A stretch of DNA of 24,931 nt from a virus. The notes beneath the pieces are model-generated. The model was not told the DNA's origin and ran no database searches. It saw only the letters and a program-made list of their open reading frames with translations. The stretch lies in the IMG/VR virus record IMGVR_UViG_3300020411_000048, positions 1-24,931 of that record. One strand, written 5' to 3'. This document shows positions 5,568 to 24,931 of this stretch, piece after piece. The stretch's first letter is position 1, and each line of letters begins with the position of its first letter. Position numbers and translations under genes: made by a program.

Positions 5568-7288
5568 TACAGCATGTCCTGTCCAGCGGTAAATCCGTAG
5601 TAGTTGGTTCCACCATCCAAAGTAAAAAATACAAACACATCAATATCAGCAGCACCTGTCGATAATGTAGGGGCTGTGTTTCCTGCCCATCGTACTGTGA
5701 CGCTGTTAGTGTTATCAGGCCACGCGATAGTTCTGCTACCTGTACCGTCCTGAACAACTTTTATAATAAAAGATGACACGTTGCCTGAACCAGCATGATT
5801 TGACCAATTAAAAGTATCAATGTCTGACCCTAAAGTAAGTTCAAAAACAGAGCCATCTCTTATATCTAATGCAGCCGTTGTTGATGAGATAGTAGCTGTA
5901 ACAGCTTTCTCTGTAATTGCTGCTTCAAACTTAGGGACACCATTTGCATCAGTAGTGACTACCTTTGATGCTTCTGTCGTTCCTAGTGTAGAAATATCTA
6001 AGTAGTTAAGTTCTGCTGCTGTTGCAGTAACATTAGTTCCGCCAATATCAAGGGTAGTCATACTAACTTCCCCTGCTACAGTTAAAACACCATCTGCTAC
6101 CGTTAATAAATCTGTGTCGTCAGTGTGCCCTATTGTTGTGCCATTGATAATGACATTATCAACAGTCAGAGTTGTTAGTGTGCCTAAAGAAGTAATGTTG
6201 GACTGCGCTGCTCCTGTTACTGTGGCAGCAGTTCCTGAAACATTACCTGTTACATCTCCTGTTAATGGCCCTGCAAAAGCATCTGCTGTTACTGTGCCAT
6301 CAAAGAAAGCATCTTTGAATTCATTGTCAGACTTACCAAGATCAATAATATTATCTGAGCCGGGATACAACGCACCATCTTCAAGGATTAACTGCTTTTC
6401 ATTCCCAGCATAGAAGTTAATCTTGTCAGCGTCTTCAAAATCAATCTTAGTTTCGTCGTCCTCACCGATTTTAATATCGGTAGCAAGCAACGAGGTAATG
6501 CCCGTCTGTGCCGCATCTACGTTTAACGTGTTAGTGCTAAGAGTAACCCCTGTACCCGCCGAAAAGGATGTAGCTGACATGGGTATATTAGACAGAGTGT
6601 TATTAGACGCATTGATTGTTTTGTTAGTCAGCGTCTGCGTGGCACTATCTCCAACCAAGTTACTTGTTGTTACTGGCAAAGTAAGCGTGACATTTCCGCT
6701 GTAAGCAGAATGTGCTGGAGACTTTATTTCAGCGTAGTGAGCATTAGAAGATTCGCAATATAGTTTTATGGTAGAAGGTGCGCCACCTCCATTTTTAACT
6801 GCTATATCGCCTTGTGTAATAATTACGCCATCAGTCGCTGTTCCAATAGTAAAACCGCCACCAACAGAAAGATCAACAAAAGCATCAAGCACTGCCGCAC
6901 CAGAACCAGCACCATCTAGGTAAACAGCCTTTACTCCGCCATTAGCAATAGTGACGTTTGCGCCACTACCTTGGCTGATAATGATAGATTGGCTACCGCT
7001 TGTAGCATTTTCAATAATCTGGAAGCGTTTTATGGTATTCGGGCCAATAGTGATGGTGCAAGCTGAGTCAAGCGTACCTGTATACTTCAGATACATTGCC
7101 CTTGCTTGATCGGTTGATCCATCTGCTATTTCTGAACTATGTGTATCCGCATTAGTTGTAATAGCTTCAGTACCATAGCCTAATGCTTCGCCAATTAACT
7201 CAAGGCTAGTATTAGTAGTATTGCCCCAGTTTGAATCACCGTCTGCTGGCTCTGCTACTCTTAAATTATTTACATATGTTGCTGCCAT
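5567..7288 (-). CDS. Long tail fibre protein
   Basis: The 573-residue product starts MAATYVNNLRVAEPADGDSN. Its first ~145 residues are paralogous to the fibre at 1903-3054 (LELIGEALGYGTEA, ENATSGSQSIIIS, VYLDGAGSGAAVLDA). The shaft then carries typical phage fibre repeats: TQTLTNKTINASNNT, DETKIDFEDADKINFYAG, SDNIIDLGKSDNEFKDAFF, and a TGDVTGNVSGTAATVTGAAQ section. The C-terminal ~110 residues form a beta-rich head (SVFELTLGSDIDTFNWSNHA, then TIAWPDNTNSVTVRWAG) ending YYGFTAGQDML. It is inferred to be the main trimeric side or tail fibre. The gene is sandwiched between a repeat-bearing virion-like protein and the LamG-like adhesin, with which it overlaps by one base. Confidence 0.85.
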   Translation of the reverse strand: MAATYVNNLRVAEPADGDSNWGNTTNTSLELIGEALGYGTEAITTNADTHSSEIADGSTDQARAMYLKYTGTLDSACTITIGPNTIKRFQIIENATSGSQSIIISQGSGANVTIANGGVKAVYLDGAGSGAAVLDAFVDLSVGGGFTIGTATDGVIITQGDIAVKNGGGAPSTIKLYCESSNAHYAEIKSPAHSAYSGNVTLTLPVTTSNLVGDSATQTLTNKTINASNNTLSNIPMSATSFSAGTGVTLSTNTLNVDAAQTGITSLLATDIKIGEDDETKIDFEDADKINFYAGNEKQLILEDGALYPGSDNIIDLGKSDNEFKDAFFDGTVTADAFAGPLTGDVTGNVSGTAATVTGAAQSNITSLGTLTTLTVDNVIINGTTIGHTDDTDLLTVADGVLTVAGEVSMTTLDIGGTNVTATAAELNYLDISTLGTTEASKVVTTDANGVPKFEAAITEKAVTATISSTTAALDIRDGSVFELTLGSDIDTFNWSNHAGSGNVSSFIIKVVQDGTGSRTIAWPDNTNSVTVRWAGNTAPTLSTGAADIDVFVFFTLDGGTNYYGFTAGQDML

Positions 7289-14504: not shown

Positions 14505-14526
14505 TAGGGGGGTATGACCCCCCCTA
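14505..14526 (-). terminator. GC-rich hairpin just after the capsid gene
   Basis: On the minus strand, TAGGGGGGGT and ACCCCCCTA form a stem of about 9 bp around a 3-nt loop, starting 3 nt after the TAA of the major capsid gene. The bases beyond it (CTTATTCC) are not a true T-run, so full termination is doubtful. Partial termination or 3'-end protection, giving more capsid mRNA than downstream mRNA, is more likely. Confidence 0.5.
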
Positions 14527-20541: not shown

Positions 20542-21434
20542 TAACTATTCCTCATAGCTTTTTTCAATCTATCTAACCAACTTGGCTCTTCACGTTCCGA
20601 TCTATCTAAAAAGCTAGGTTCTTCTATGTTGGTTTTGTAAAAGTTACTTCTTCTAAAATCATCTACTGTCATTCTATCTTTAAACGGTGCATCTTCTTCT
20701 ACTCTCGCTGCTCTACGCCTACCAGTTGAAACAATATTTTGTATGAGCGGTATATTTAATAAAGTCTTAACACTTTGAGATAACTCTTCGAGCGTAGAAT
20801 CTGCCCCTATTGCATAATAAATGGTTTTTGCTTTATCTCTATCAGTTTTGCTTACTAAACGATTGCTATGTATTGCATCACTAAGTAGCTCTACTGACGC
20901 TAGTAATTCTTTTTTATTTTTAGACCCCATAAGATCTTGAAATCTGTTCATTATTTCGCTTGTCCCGAACATTCGGTCTTTATCTATACCTTCAATACCT
21001 TGCCTATGTCTGTACTCATGGGCTTGTATACGAGGATTAGCGTTTTCTACACCAAAAACATTAACAGTGTCTGGGTCTAAAGGAAAATCAACGATTTCAT
21101 AACCTACTTGCATTGCCTTGGTTCGTCCCTCTGGCGCATTTTTAGGAACGTAAATTCCCTTCGTAGGCCACGAACCACCTCTAAAAGTATGTAGTCTAAA
21201 TCTACTTGGGTCTACAAGATCAGCCTCTTCTGGCATACGCGCTTGTACCTCTGATTGAAACCGAATATCTCCCATCTGCATGGAGGCAAGAAACTCCCTC
21301 TGCTGCTGGGGAGACAGCCCAGAAGCGTAGTTACGTAACGAACGGCGACTAGAAGGAGATACCCGCGCTAAATAATTTTCAAGCTCCGGTTCTAATGCTG
21401 TTATACCTTTTTCTTTACCAGAAGCACTAGCCAT
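20541..21434 (-). CDS. Putative zinc metalloprotease-like protein between terminase and portal
   Basis: The 297-residue product carries IQAHEYRHRQG: H139-E140-x-x-H143 is the HExxH zinc-protease signature, followed 17 residues later by E160 (FGTSEIMNRF), a possible third ligand. The N-terminal ~60 residues are helical (SSRRSLRNYASGLSPQQQRE), a beta part follows (RLHTFRGGSWPTKGIYVPKN), and the C-terminus holds a direct repeat, EEPSFLDRSEREEPSWLDRL (271-290). It is tied to TerL and portal by TAATG overlaps on both sides. It could be a head-maturation or portal-processing protease; the motif is visible, the activity is inference. It is unlike the usual ClpP- or U35-type prohead proteases. Confidence 0.6.
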   Translation of the reverse strand: MASASGKEKGITALEPELENYLARVSPSSRRSLRNYASGLSPQQQREFLASMQMGDIRFQSEVQARMPEEADLVDPSRFRLHTFRGGSWPTKGIYVPKNAPEGRTKAMQVGYEIVDFPLDPDTVNVFGVENANPRIQAHEYRHRQGIEGIDKDRMFGTSEIMNRFQDLMGSKNKKELLASVELLSDAIHSNRLVSKTDRDKAKTIYYAIGADSTLEELSQSVKTLLNIPLIQNIVSTGRRRAARVEEDAPFKDRMTVDDFRRSNFYKTNIEEPSFLDRSEREEPSWLDRLKKAMRNS

Positions 21435-22984
21435 TAATAATATCCGCCTCGTTTCTGTTTGAAGTAGCGCATTTCTTCCGGTTCATCTGTCGGTAGACGA
21501 ATGAAGCCCCCCTGTCGGAACCGCATAAGTGCCATAACGGTACTATCCACGAGGTCATCATGGCTCATAAACGGGAACCCTGCAATCTCTTCTATGACCT
21601 CTTCAGCCCATCGTGTTGCAGGCATCCATACCATACCGGATGCTACGATATCTGCAACTGAGTTTAATCTTGCTAGTTTATCACCAGATCCCCTATGAGG
21701 TGTATATTCTTGTACTGGTAGTCCCATACGCCGCATCTCCTGATACAACGCTGTACCTGCACTCTTCTTCTCCACAATAAACGCATCAGGTTCCCAGTCC
21801 CTGTACTCGTCCATCGCCAAGTCCTTTAGCTCTGGAAACTCCAGCCGCTGCTTAATACTGTTAAGCAGAATAATATGGTAGGCGTTCTCGTCCTCGTTCA
21901 TAAACACCCCCCACGTGGTCAGCGCGGTATAGTCAGCGCGATTGTGGGTTTCTGCCGCTGCGTCCAGTGACATGATAATGTACTCACACATAGGTGGATT
22001 CTCATTCCCCCATGACTGCCACCACTCACGTTTAATAAGTGCAGCTTCTTCTGCGGTAGGTTCCTGCTGGTACTGGGCGTTCCACTGGAATGTCGGCATA
22101 GATGCCTTCGTCCGTAGAAGCGCGTTCAAGTCAAAGAACTGAGGCCACAGGGGTTTTTGTACAGGTTTACCTTTCTTATCTGTCAAATCCAGTATCGCTG
22201 GGAACTCCACAATCTCATACTGGTCAGATAGGTCATTATTCACCATGTCCCGTGTCACACGCCCTGTCAGGTCATCCATGTGCCAACGGGTCTGTATAAT
22301 GGCGACACGACCTCCGGGCATCAAACGGGTACGAGCACCAAAGGTAAACCACTCGTAGGCTTTCTCAAATACCTCAAAGTTACCGTTAATCACATCCTGC
22401 TCAGAGTGAGGGTCATCTACCAACAGTAGATCCGCACCCCTACCAGCGATAGAGGAGCCTATACCACAGGCATAGTACTCACCGCCCATACTGGTGTTCC
22501 AACGTCCAGCCGATTTGGAATCAGCGGATAACGCCACAGTAGGGAATATAGACCGATACTCATCAGTCGCAATGAGGTTACGTACCTTTCTACCAAAGTC
22601 TACAGCCAGATCCGTAGTGTGCGACACCATCATCACTTTTTTATTAGGGTTCCGCCCCAGAAACCACGCTGGGAAGTAAATAGATACTAATTGTGATTTT
22701 CCGTGGCGGGGCGGAATATTGACGCAAATCCTGTCTTTGTTTCCTTGCTCTATATCCATGAGCATACGTGCTAATATACGGTGGTGTTTACCCACAATAT
22801 AATCGGGTTGCATACGTTTACAGAACTCGATCAGGTCATTAAACGCAAGCTCATTCTGCTGCCTAGATGATAATTCATCAATAATACGGTCAATCTCAGC
22901 AACTTCTTCAGGAGAGAACGAATCCAAATTATCGAGCATCTGCTGTATCTCTTCTTCAGAGAAATCTAACGCAGCATCAGTCAT
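21434..22984 (-). CDS. terL: Terminase large subunit
   Basis: The 516-residue TerL has an N-terminal ATPase with P-loop IPPRHGKS (residues 90-97), a SHTTD segment (121-125) and Walker B LLLVDDPHSE (186-194, D190-D191). The C-terminal RNase H-like nuclease shows its three acidic sites: D341 in IIMSLDAAAET, E405 in AFIVEKKSAGT and D476/D477 in SHDDLVDSTVMALMRF. The RHGKS P-loop is the form used by the Terminase_6 group. It cuts phage DNA and pumps it into the procapsid through the portal. The gene overlaps the small terminase by 8 nt and the HEYRH-motif gene by 1 nt. Length is normal for the family and all key residues are present. Confidence 0.95.
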   Translation of the reverse strand: MTDAALDFSEEEIQQMLDNLDSFSPEEVAEIDRIIDELSSRQQNELAFNDLIEFCKRMQPDYIVGKHHRILARMLMDIEQGNKDRICVNIPPRHGKSQLVSIYFPAWFLGRNPNKKVMMVSHTTDLAVDFGRKVRNLIATDEYRSIFPTVALSADSKSAGRWNTSMGGEYYACGIGSSIAGRGADLLLVDDPHSEQDVINGNFEVFEKAYEWFTFGARTRLMPGGRVAIIQTRWHMDDLTGRVTRDMVNNDLSDQYEIVEFPAILDLTDKKGKPVQKPLWPQFFDLNALLRTKASMPTFQWNAQYQQEPTAEEAALIKREWWQSWGNENPPMCEYIIMSLDAAAETHNRADYTALTTWGVFMNEDENAYHIILLNSIKQRLEFPELKDLAMDEYRDWEPDAFIVEKKSAGTALYQEMRRMGLPVQEYTPHRGSGDKLARLNSVADIVASGMVWMPATRWAEEVIEEIAGFPFMSHDDLVDSTVMALMRFRQGGFIRLPTDEPEEMRYFKQKRGGYY

Positions 22985-23624
22985 CGTATTCTTCGTCTTC
23001 GTCGTTTATGCCAAGTTCTTCATCCACATCTATATCAAGAACTACGGCATCTTCCACATCTTCTACAACCTCACCCGCTACAAGCTTCTCCAGCTTGCCT
23101 TTCAATTTAGTACGTAGGTCATCTGTGGACTGATGTGTAATAGTTATTTCTGACTTTTCGGAGAATAATCCAACGTCAGATATCTTACCAAGTAACTCCA
23201 ACGCTCTCATACGTATGCGTGGATCATCATTGTCAGATTCTATCAACAGCTTGTTGGTAACTAGGTTGCGTATATGCACAGAACTCTCTACAACAGACTG
23301 CCCGAACTCCTTTAGTATGGCATCAGTCAGCAATAAAGAGGCGGGTGTTAACGTAGCGGCTCGCTTTGATGTCACCTTTTTAGACGTATTTTCAGGGTCT
23401 TCGGCGTAAGCGGCTACTAACTTAGCGGCATTATCCTGATCTTCTTTGGTAGGTTCTACCTCTAGCCCATGCTCCGCCAAATCCATAACGGTATTAGCTG
23501 CGGCATCCGCCCTGTCCTTTAAGTCCAGAATAGGCTCAGATTCGGGGATTTCCACCCCTACCTCGGGTTTGACATGTAATGTCATCAAATGTTCGCAGGC
23601 GTAACCGTAATTCGGTTTATACAT
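22977..23624 (-). CDS. terS: Terminase small subunit (putative)
   Basis: The 215-residue product has a central conserved block (IRNLVTNKLLIESDNDDPRI at 118-137, MRALELLGKISDVGLFSEKS at 139-158, then ITITHQSTDDLRTKLKGKLEK) that I recall from small terminase subunits of marine phages. It ends in a strongly acidic tail, about residues 185-215. Small terminases bind the packaging site and regulate TerL. It is first in the operon, immediately before TerL, and overlaps it by 8 nt. The start is uncertain: neither the ATG at 23624, which directly follows an A7T7 tract, nor the in-frame ATG at 23585 (MTLHVKPEVG) has a clear ribosome site. Confidence 0.75.
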   Translation of the reverse strand: MYKPNYGYACEHLMTLHVKPEVGVEIPESEPILDLKDRADAAANTVMDLAEHGLEVEPTKEDQDNAAKLVAAYAEDPENTSKKVTSKRAATLTPASLLLTDAILKEFGQSVVESSVHIRNLVTNKLLIESDNDDPRIRMRALELLGKISDVGLFSEKSEITITHQSTDDLRTKLKGKLEKLVAGEVVEDVEDAVVLDIDVDEELGINDEDEEYDD

Positions 23625-23639
23625 GAAAAAAATTTTTTT

Positions 23640-23687
23640 ACAAGGGGGGACTTAAAAAGACAAGGGGGGTGCGCCTCAGAAAGGGGG
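23640..23687 (+). repeat. Three AAGGGGG boxes phased about 20 bp apart
   Basis: ACAAGGGGGG occurs at 23640-23649 and 23660-23669, exactly 20 bp apart, and a third AAGGGGG starts at 23681. The spacing of 20 and 19 bp is close to two turns of DNA, placing all boxes on one face, as expected for a multimeric protein such as a small terminase or repressor. Confidence 0.6.
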
Positions 23688-23808
23688 TGGGTAGCTGGAA
23701 CTCAAAATTTTGATGGTCGTTCGTGGGAATTAGTAATACATACGCGGTACATGGAACCAGATGCGGATAAGGGGTGTAGGGGTGCGTATATGTAGCTATC
23801 TATGGCTA

Positions 23809-23836
23809 TTGGCGGCTATTAGTGGTTAAATAGAAT
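23809..23836 (+). promoter_or_regulatory. Possible sigma-70-like promoter for the rightward gene
   Basis: TTGGCG (23809-23814) and TAGAAT (23831-23836) are separated by 16 bp and would give a leader of about 70 nt before the ATG at 23912. The -10 box matches 5 of 6 and the -35 box 4 of 6 consensus bases. No other supported element backs this call, so it is tentative. Confidence 0.35.
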
Positions 23837-23861
23837 CATGTCGCGGCAACGTGACAGCGCG

Positions 23862-23885
23862 TAACCACCACACCTGTGGTAGTTA
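23862..23885 (+). promoter_or_regulatory. Imperfect dyad upstream of the rightward gene
   Basis: TAACCACCACA and TGTGGTAGTTA are inverted copies with one mismatch and a 2-nt centre. The element lies 26 nt before the start codon, so it could be an operator or, if transcribed, a leader hairpin (stem ACCAC/GTGGT, loop ACCT). Confidence 0.45.
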
Positions 23886-23911
23886 CTTAATCTAACTTAT
23901 CGGAGACAGTT

Positions 23912-24871
23912 ATGTCTAAAGGTAAAAAGGTCATTGCTTCCAGACCTACTAAAGGGAAGCGTTATGATGCACAGGAACGTGAGACTCTCGCGAGTCAAAT
24001 TGATACTTGTGTTAAGACCGACGTAGGTAATGCAAAGAACATTGCCGAGGCGGTCAAGGATATGGATGTGCTAAGTCTTATCGGGCCGGATGAGACTAAC
24101 CCAAATAAGCTTTTTGGTTACAAGCCATCGCAGATCCGCCACACTGCAGATACCTACAGGGCTGTACGTTGTTCAATGAAACTGTCGATTCTAGAACACT
24201 CTGGAAAGTATGAACGGACCAGAGAACTACTAGAAGAAGTGGTTAAGTTTTTCAACACGTCGGGCAAGAAAAACCCGTGCAGTCAGATGCTGGTAGCGAA
24301 AACCGAAGGTAATGTTATCAAACAGGAATTGCATGATAATGCCACCGAGGGATTCGTTGAGGTCTGGAACCGTAGCAGCAATCTACAGATAACTCTGGCA
24401 GAGTTAAAAAAAGATTATGGTGATTTACAAAAGCACGCTGATACGAAAATTGGCAGATGGGCCGAACTAGTGGCGAAACGTACTACCATACTGGAAGATC
24501 AGGATGTGCATACTACGTTACAAGGTCAGCCTGTAACTCTTACAGGGCAACGTGTAGAAACCTACGCTGACCCGATCTGCAGGGCATACTTTGAAGCCAT
24601 CGAGGCCGACAAGGTAAAAGAGGCCGAACGCAGACGCAAGCTTACTGACAAGCAAAAAGGTTTAGATTCTATAAAATCTGAGATCGAGAAGATCGATACT
24701 ATTATTGATCAGCTTGACGGTGGTAAGCCTGCCATTGGCAAATGGACAGACGACAGTTCGATTGCCATATGTGATGCATGGCGAGGTGTTAAGTTTGCTC
24801 TTCAGATCGTGGAAGAATCCATGAAAGAAGGTAAGACAGTAACAGCCGCCCAGATGAAAAAGTCTAAGTAG
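23912..24871 (+). CDS. Rightward gene of unknown function with coiled-coil segments
   Basis: This 319-residue protein is the only plus-strand gene. It has a basic N-terminal tail (SKGKKVIASRPTKGKRYD), a helical middle with YKPSQIRHTADTYRAVRCSM and REL-LEEVVKFFNT, a charged helix near 160-180 (ITLAELKKDYGDLQKHADTK), a second charged helix at about 228-265 (AIEADKVKEAERRRKLTDKQ) and a lysine-rich end. No family is recognised and no catalytic motif stands out. A GGAG site 6 nt before the ATG and a strong terminator right after the stop make it a self-contained transcription unit, divergent from the virion genes. An early, regulatory or DNA-associated role is possible; this is speculation. Confidence 0.8.
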   Translation: MSKGKKVIASRPTKGKRYDAQERETLASQIDTCVKTDVGNAKNIAEAVKDMDVLSLIGPDETNPNKLFGYKPSQIRHTADTYRAVRCSMKLSILEHSGKYERTRELLEEVVKFFNTSGKKNPCSQMLVAKTEGNVIKQELHDNATEGFVEVWNRSSNLQITLAELKKDYGDLQKHADTKIGRWAELVAKRTTILEDQDVHTTLQGQPVTLTGQRVETYADPICRAYFEAIEADKVKEAERRRKLTDKQKGLDSIKSEIEKIDTIIDQLDGGKPAIGKWTDDSSIAICDAWRGVKFALQIVEESMKEGKTVTAAQMKKSK

Positions 24872-24886
24872 TCTGGCAATTAAAAA

Positions 24887-24916
24887 GGGAGTCACTTCGG
24901 TGGTTCCCTTTTTTTT
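24887..24916 (+). terminator. Strong intrinsic terminator with a UUCG tetraloop
   Basis: GGGAGTCAC (24887-24895) pairs with GTGGTTCCC (24900-24908), including two G-T pairs, around the loop TTCG closed by C-G, an exceptionally stable RNA loop. Eight T residues follow (24909-24916). It lies 15 nt after the stop of the rightward gene. Confidence 0.9.
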
Positions 24917-24931
24917 GGCCCAAAAGAAACC

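Follow-up and report, generated by a model that had tools for sequence, protein, structure and literature searches.

Conserved C-run arrays and a predicted late promoter next to a terS-like gene in uncultured phages: a candidate packaging site

Organization of the locus

The window, that is, the whole stretch of DNA analysed here, comprises all 24,931 bases of the virus record IMGVR_UViG_3300020411_000048. Its minus strand carries the structural genes, which run up to the gene for the terminase large subunit (terL) and a 215-codon frame at 22977-23624 encoding a terminase small subunit-like protein (terS). From terS leftwards the main frames have a single reading direction, and a gene on the plus strand opens the other arm. 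The two arms are separated by a divergent control region of about 300 bp, to which a series of G-run boxes belongs. Read in the sense of terS, the order is palindrome, array 2, TATTACTAAT block, array 1, sigma70-like promoter and terS. The features are, by coordinates in the window:

21434-22984, minus strand: terminase large subunit, terL (phrog_38, E 8.4e-106; Terminase_6C and 6N)
22977-23585, minus strand: terS-like gene, its start shifted to the probable Met14; the open frame extends to 23624
23590-23607, minus strand: conserved leader motif CGGTTA..CCTGCGA, which precedes the terS start and is seen in relatives
23616-23643, minus strand: sigma70-like terS/late promoter, predicted from sequence, with a layout common to many relatives
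23644-23649, minus strand: array 1, -35-proximal box, GGGGGG as written and CCCCCC in terS sense; present in close relatives
23664-23669, minus strand: array 1, middle box, CCCCCC, aligning with the best conserved C-run of the relatives
23683-23687, minus strand: array 1, outer box, CCCCC inside CCCACCCCC; on the plus strand GGGGG, then TGGG
23716-23743, minus strand: conserved TATTACTAAT block between the arrays, 67% mean pairwise identity in 52 elements
23771-23782, minus strand: array 2, CCCCTACACCCC
23861-23886, no strand assigned: palindrome GTAACCACCACACCTGTGGTAGTTAC, before the divergent gene
23912-24871, plus strand: fast-evolving divergent gene of 319 aa, first of the other arm, without a PHROG or Pfam match at E<=0.001

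The terS gene and its relatives

The location of the boxes next to the small terminase gene, as the earlier note had it, stands; the annotated gene start probably has to be moved. In an alignment of 30 rows, over ranges picked by us, at least 90% retain Met14, and many distant tblastn matches of terS open at residues 9-14, so the gene probably begins at 23585 rather than at 23624. The first codons of the 23624 start overlap the promoter-like -10. As to identity, 29 of 30 terS members match phrog_51, 'terminase small subunit', weakly at E<=1, the best at 0.0017. The predicted structure is poor (pLDDT 57, pTM 0.34): a clear DNA-binding fold was not seen in the model, and structure searches gave generic helical matches only. 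The protein had no match in phage records, nor in genome contigs when searched with its six peptide patterns.

Among viral contigs relatives are plentiful. One scan with the 215-aa protein confirmed 399 terS relatives, the best 80 of which were taken further, as were the best 80 of at least 598 relatives from a scan with terL. Pattern scans, one contributing 41 stretches, enlarged the set of loci. In one locus (L114, record G019) the terS match contains a single in-frame TAG.

Phased C-runs at a single locus

Three AAGGGGG boxes begin at 23642, 23662 and 23681, in steps of 20 and 19 bp as previously noted, and neither strand of the window holds another copy. A total of three is ordinary (2.5 expected; 43 of 100 shuffles reach three or more). 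Their clustering is beyond chance: neither 2000 shuffles of 23590-23912 nor 300 of the whole window produced three AAGGGGG in a stretch of 45 bp, or three G5/C5 runs spaced 18-22 bp apart. The further G-runs reported in 23769-23782 are the GGGG at 23771-23774 and the GGGG at 23779-23782, which make up array 2, and the A7T7 tract beside the boxes lies at 23626-23639.

Related phages keep the boxes, and the proposals made for them in the earlier note thus do not fall for want of boxes in relatives. Most of 143 loci with a placeable terS have C-runs upstream, in terS sense, and few G-runs; the exceptions include short upstream stretches and some mis-placed starts. A profile of the element matched 263 times, with 207 matches well covered and 87 non-redundant at less than 85% mutual identity. 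These 87 elements are strongly biased to one strand, holding 402 runs of C4 or longer in terS sense versus 19 of G4 or longer. Array 1 in relatives consists of C5-6 boxes at steps of about 20 bp. In the 77 of 87 relatives with a recognizable anchor, intervals between the ends of successive C-runs form two peaks, one of 19-21 bp (58 of 143 intervals) and one of 5-8 bp (53 intervals), so that the term 'helically phased' used earlier holds as a description of spacing.

The array occupies a single locus. Pairs of C5 runs 10-18 bases apart adjoin terS in 10 of 11 records, the remaining one (G006) having a weaker form in place of a strict C5 pair; elsewhere the loose pair pattern occurs as single pairs, except for one tandem repeat in G001. 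This tandem repeat, at 6005-6078 and away from terS, contains C5 runs. The three-box array was not found near terL of five distant isolates, and no relative among isolates was detected by DNA in 50,697 phage records. Searches of open-licence literature gave no title or abstract opening about the control element. Familiar in its architecture, the element is new as a family of sequences.

Conserved islands in the control region

Conservation of the control region comes in islands. Across 52 loci, array 2, the TATTACTAAT block, array 1, the promoter and the leader have mean pairwise identities of 57-67% (array 2, 62%), as against 32% for the spacer that separates array 2 from the TATTACTAAT block. 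In 120 terS and 118 terL sequences, synonymous sites are close to saturated, at 1.03-1.52 times expectation; the islands are therefore maintained by selection. The constraint does not clearly extend into terS, whose first 8 codons stand at 1.33. Within the gene, codons 129-144 (about 23201-23154) have a synonymous conservation ratio of 1.4-1.5, above the rest of terS, and are perhaps a second DNA signal.

Conserved intergenic blocks might also encode a structured RNA, either a leader or a non-coding RNA, in place of a DNA site. We consider this highly improbable, as RNAalifold placed 0 consensus pairs in 22 sequences in terS sense, Rfam gave no match at E<=1 on either strand, and the arrays stand upstream of the terS promoter.

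A predicted late promoter next to array 1

Immediately after array 1, in the direction of terS, lie the hexamers TTGTAA (-35, 23643-23638) and TATAAA (-10, 23621-23616). Their 16-bp spacer is within the 16-18 bp of sigma70-type promoters and contains most of the A7T7 tract. By its sequence this would be the terS/late promoter. In many relatives the same place is taken by TTGNNN or TTTACA, followed after 16-18 bases by a hexamer resembling TATAAT, with array 1 either touching the -35 or standing about 20 bp away. Promoter scores of at least 9 were obtained in 39 of 87 elements against about 15.3 expected from shuffles, and 38 of the 87 best matches fall at four adjacent offsets. The mean score exceeds that of shuffles modestly (8.5 vs 7.8), and it is the recurrent position that argues for a promoter.

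To evaluate which neighbour the islands follow, similarity of each island was correlated with that of the flanking proteins over 52 loci. Partial correlations with terS are 0.24 for array 1, 0.27 for the TATTACTAAT block and 0.22 for the promoter, values reached in 1, 0 and 1 of 300 permutations, respectively; with the divergent protein they are 0.08, 0.09 and -0.09. The leader tracks terS and the divergent protein about equally (0.13 and 0.14), and array 2 tracks neither of them clearly. Linkage can account for part of such co-variation.

These results bear on the earlier suggestion of an operator controlling both divergent units. A promoter and operator role is well supported by the -35 and -10 that follow array 1 and by the divergent arrangement, the nearest frame of at least 130 residues pointing away from terS in all of 55 loci. 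The idea of control over both units is only half right: variation in array 1, in the TATTACTAAT block and in the promoter goes with terS, and it is a separate palindrome that varies with the divergent gene.

Transcription control might be all there is to the element. In the main rival to the packaging reading set out below, which we regard as a real though lesser possibility, a regulator of phage or host origin acts on the C boxes and turns a single late promoter on, as an early-to-late switch, or off, and packaging has no part. Like the sites of an activator, the boxes are helically spaced and lie close upstream of the -35, the co-directional frames from terS leftwards could all be served by one promoter, and the arms diverge at every one of the 55 loci. 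One late promoter per genome would likewise explain why the array is single. Against this, conservation continues upstream of the -35 for about 140 bp, array 2 included, a long stretch for one operator, and no regulator was found. The explanation nevertheless accounts for most facts almost as well as the packaging reading does.

A replication origin is an improbable alternative, suggested by iteron-like C boxes with an A/T tract at a single locus where the early and late arms meet. In one relative (G004) the early arm encodes DNA polymerase A, a SNF2-like helicase, a PD-(D/E)XK nuclease and a VWA/DUF2201 protein, with weaker matches to MoxR-like and primase-like proteins (DUF927/primase-like protein); the polymerase and the primase-like protein would suit an origin. 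The GC skew passes from negative to slightly positive at the control region, as it might at an origin, but in the window skew tracks coding direction and is hence not independent evidence. The A/T tract is accounted for as promoter spacer, and no initiator was found.

Contig ends and the question of cos

The earlier note had offered the boxes as a pac or cos site. In a lambda-type cos, with its cosB, repeated terminase sites lie upstream of terS, and a fixed staggered cut at the boxes would here produce the virion ends. The position beside terS is as expected for such a site. In contrast to a lambda-type cos, neither the long contigs nor a circular map end at the element. Ten long contigs of 53.8-62.3 kb were examined: no end of theirs lies closer than 1.6 kb to the array, and an exact terminal repeat is absent from all ten and from the window. 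One relative (G013) opens with terL codons 5-319 and closes with codons 303-516, and this overlap implies a circular map of about 60.7 kb broken inside terL. Among terL contigs (the best 80 of at least 598), 57 of 80 start more than 1 kb upstream of terL.

Contig starts are nonetheless in excess at array 1, and on one side. Among the 80 terL contigs, nine have their start 600-799 bp upstream of the gene, against about 4.4 expected from the local rate. Of the 41 stretches with the array 1 pattern, eight end within 70 bp upstream (seven contig ends and one 10-base scaffold gap) and none within 600 bp downstream, the starts thus piling up in array 1 on contigs that hold the terS side. Of 266 loci, at least 38 (on 35 contigs) have their start inside the element or shortly before it, and two have their end there; this count lacks at least five of the eight stretches just named. 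Contigs of the opposite side show no such accumulation: of 118 loci with the TATTACTAAT block, only 2 end on the terS side at a distance of 150 bp or less, and one of these is the same scaffold gap. Contig 3300029787_003861 consists of two pieces with 10 bases absent at array 1, which we read as a scaffold gap bridged by read pairs.

The one-sided excess could reflect a packaging start, poor assembly through the C-runs, or sampling: C-runs may break assemblies, and contigs that lack the terminase genes are rarer in the collection. Fixed cos ends are unlikely, because most contigs run through the element. Of the two proposals, the cos half is accordingly unlikely, the excess of starts at array 1 having raised our estimate of it slightly, and the pac half is plausible from the layout.

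A candidate pac overlapping the late promoter

In the pac of the Bacillus subtilis phages SPP1 and SF6 we find the closest counterpart. SPP1 pac overlaps the terS promoters and the gene start and holds three sets of direct repeats, and its DNA is thought to bend round TerS (PMC6316719, PMC4737164). A title cited in the former paper adds that terminase represses its own synthesis (PMC6316719). The element described here likewise lies at or just upstream of terS, overlaps the terS promoter as predicted computationally, and has direct repeats and bendable DNA; headful packaging of a circularly permuted genome, a property of SPP1 and SF6, may be shared. There are differences as well. The box sequences are not those of SPP1/SF6, TerS binding and a cut are predictions here, and the one-strand C5-6 runs go unmentioned for SPP1 in the available text of PMC6316719 and PMC4737164.

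Given the match in layout with SPP1 pac and the reported self-repression of terminase, we favour, tentatively and at a little under even chances, an SPP1-like candidate pac that overlaps an autoregulated terS/late promoter. The boxes would be several copies of a protein-binding site within a cis-region present at one locus, and this region would fire the terS/late operon and most likely also mark the packaging start. A protein, most likely TerS, would occupy one DNA face along the C-box arrays, at steps of about 20 bp, and the A7T7 tract in the promoter spacer would facilitate bending. While TerS is scarce, the promoter would be open and late genes made; once accumulated, TerS would cover the arrays, shut its own promoter and pass the site on to TerL, which would make the first cut; headful packaging would then proceed along the concatemer. 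The sequences themselves show the conserved islands, the strand bias, the spacing, the single locus, the promoter-like layout and the co-variation with terS; we infer TerS as binder, autorepression, cut and headful packaging. The DNA-binding domain of SF6/SPP1 TerS barely prefers the box repeats (PMC4737164), and the boxes here therefore need not be TerS sites. Also weighing against this reading are the poor terS model, the behaviour of array 2 and the leader in the co-variation, the lack of a strict C5 pair in G006 and that of a three-box array in the five distant isolates. The circular map of G013 fits headful packaging, and the excess of contig starts at array 1 would fit a packaging start, as it would equally fit assembly trouble.

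As a candidate packaging start and late promoter, the element is a mappable landmark for a large group of uncultured phages, and it lets termini and packaging direction be tested from reads.

Palindromes of the early arm and the divergent protein

Most relatives hold a palindrome between array 2 and the divergent gene, of a sequence other than that in the window. Palindrome scores of at least 8 occur in 42 of 71 relatives and in none of 71 shuffles. Of 24 loci, 23 have additional copies on the early side, at a density of 0.68 per kb, and two have them on the late side, at 0.02 per kb. Tested on other loci, these palindromes gave 38 matches in 185 comparisons, partly because relatives share types. 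Three genomes have 10 (G012), 9 (G013) and 5 (G010) palindrome places, and their palindromes are unmatched in three other genomes at the limits used; G009 shares the half-site of G013 with one extra base in the centre, beyond the reach of the search pattern. In four genomes 21 of 30 copies are intergenic versus 545 of 2000 random positions, and 11 of 30 lie within 60 nt before an ATG frame versus 145 of 2000. The short loops suggest a DNA operator, with an RNA hairpin as a possible alternative.

Palindrome similarity follows the divergent protein: over 42 loci the partial rank correlation is 0.27, reached in 0 of 999 permutations, versus 0.10 with terS (146 of 999). The divergent proteins are hypervariable, with 132 distinct sequences falling into 17 BLAST groups, the largest of 81. 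The gene for this hypervariable protein adjoins strongly conserved DNA.

Repeated sites of this kind recall the operators and stoperators of cluster A mycobacteriophages, which also occur in multiple, lineage-specific copies along part of the genome. The cluster A sites are 13 bp long, lie mostly in one orientation and number up to about 30 per genome (PMC6550527). In contrast to these asymmetric sites, those found here are palindromic and nearly confined to the early side. Cyanophages A-1 and N-1 likewise have a repeated, mostly intergenic motif, suggested by its authors as possible stoperators (PMC4916379); that motif is asymmetric with an 11-bp core, as opposed to the palindromes here. The lineage-specific palindrome repeats are stoperator-like and potentially new.

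A broader reading, possible but unlikely in our estimate, would make the locus a hub that joins the terS-tracking C-box region, as candidate pac and autoregulated late promoter, to a palindromic early-gene or immunity regulon. Each lineage would have its own operator, in up to about 10 repeats along the early arm, read by the hypervariable first divergent protein (the 23912-24871 product in the window). Less expected than the C-box element, the palindromic regulon merits its own study. If it is real, stoperator-like, lineage-specific control would reach beyond the phages for which cited work describes or suggests it, and a natural collection of operator/regulator pairs would be available.

For the divergent protein of the window, peptide patterns found no relative in viral contigs; tblastn on the retrieved loci gave two (L001 and L005), and BLAST grouped six loci with it. 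A member of cluster 1, the largest group (L075), yielded a confident all-helical model (pLDDT 93), which had no Foldseek match at E<=0.001 in the PDB or in viral models. With VIA-align its best Z was 4.8, and residues 60-113 aligned with a sigma-factor domain (Z 4.4, rmsd 2.6, 51 aligned) and with a putative DNA-binding protein (Z 4.3, rmsd 2.6, 53 aligned), a likeness that is no more than a hint.

Two minor observations in the window concern other sites. Directly after the divergent gene, at 24881-24917, GGGAGTCACTTCGGTGGTTCCC followed by a T run has by eye the appearance of an intrinsic terminator. Just after the capsid gene, at 14507-14524, G6 and C7 runs face each other and likely form a hairpin.
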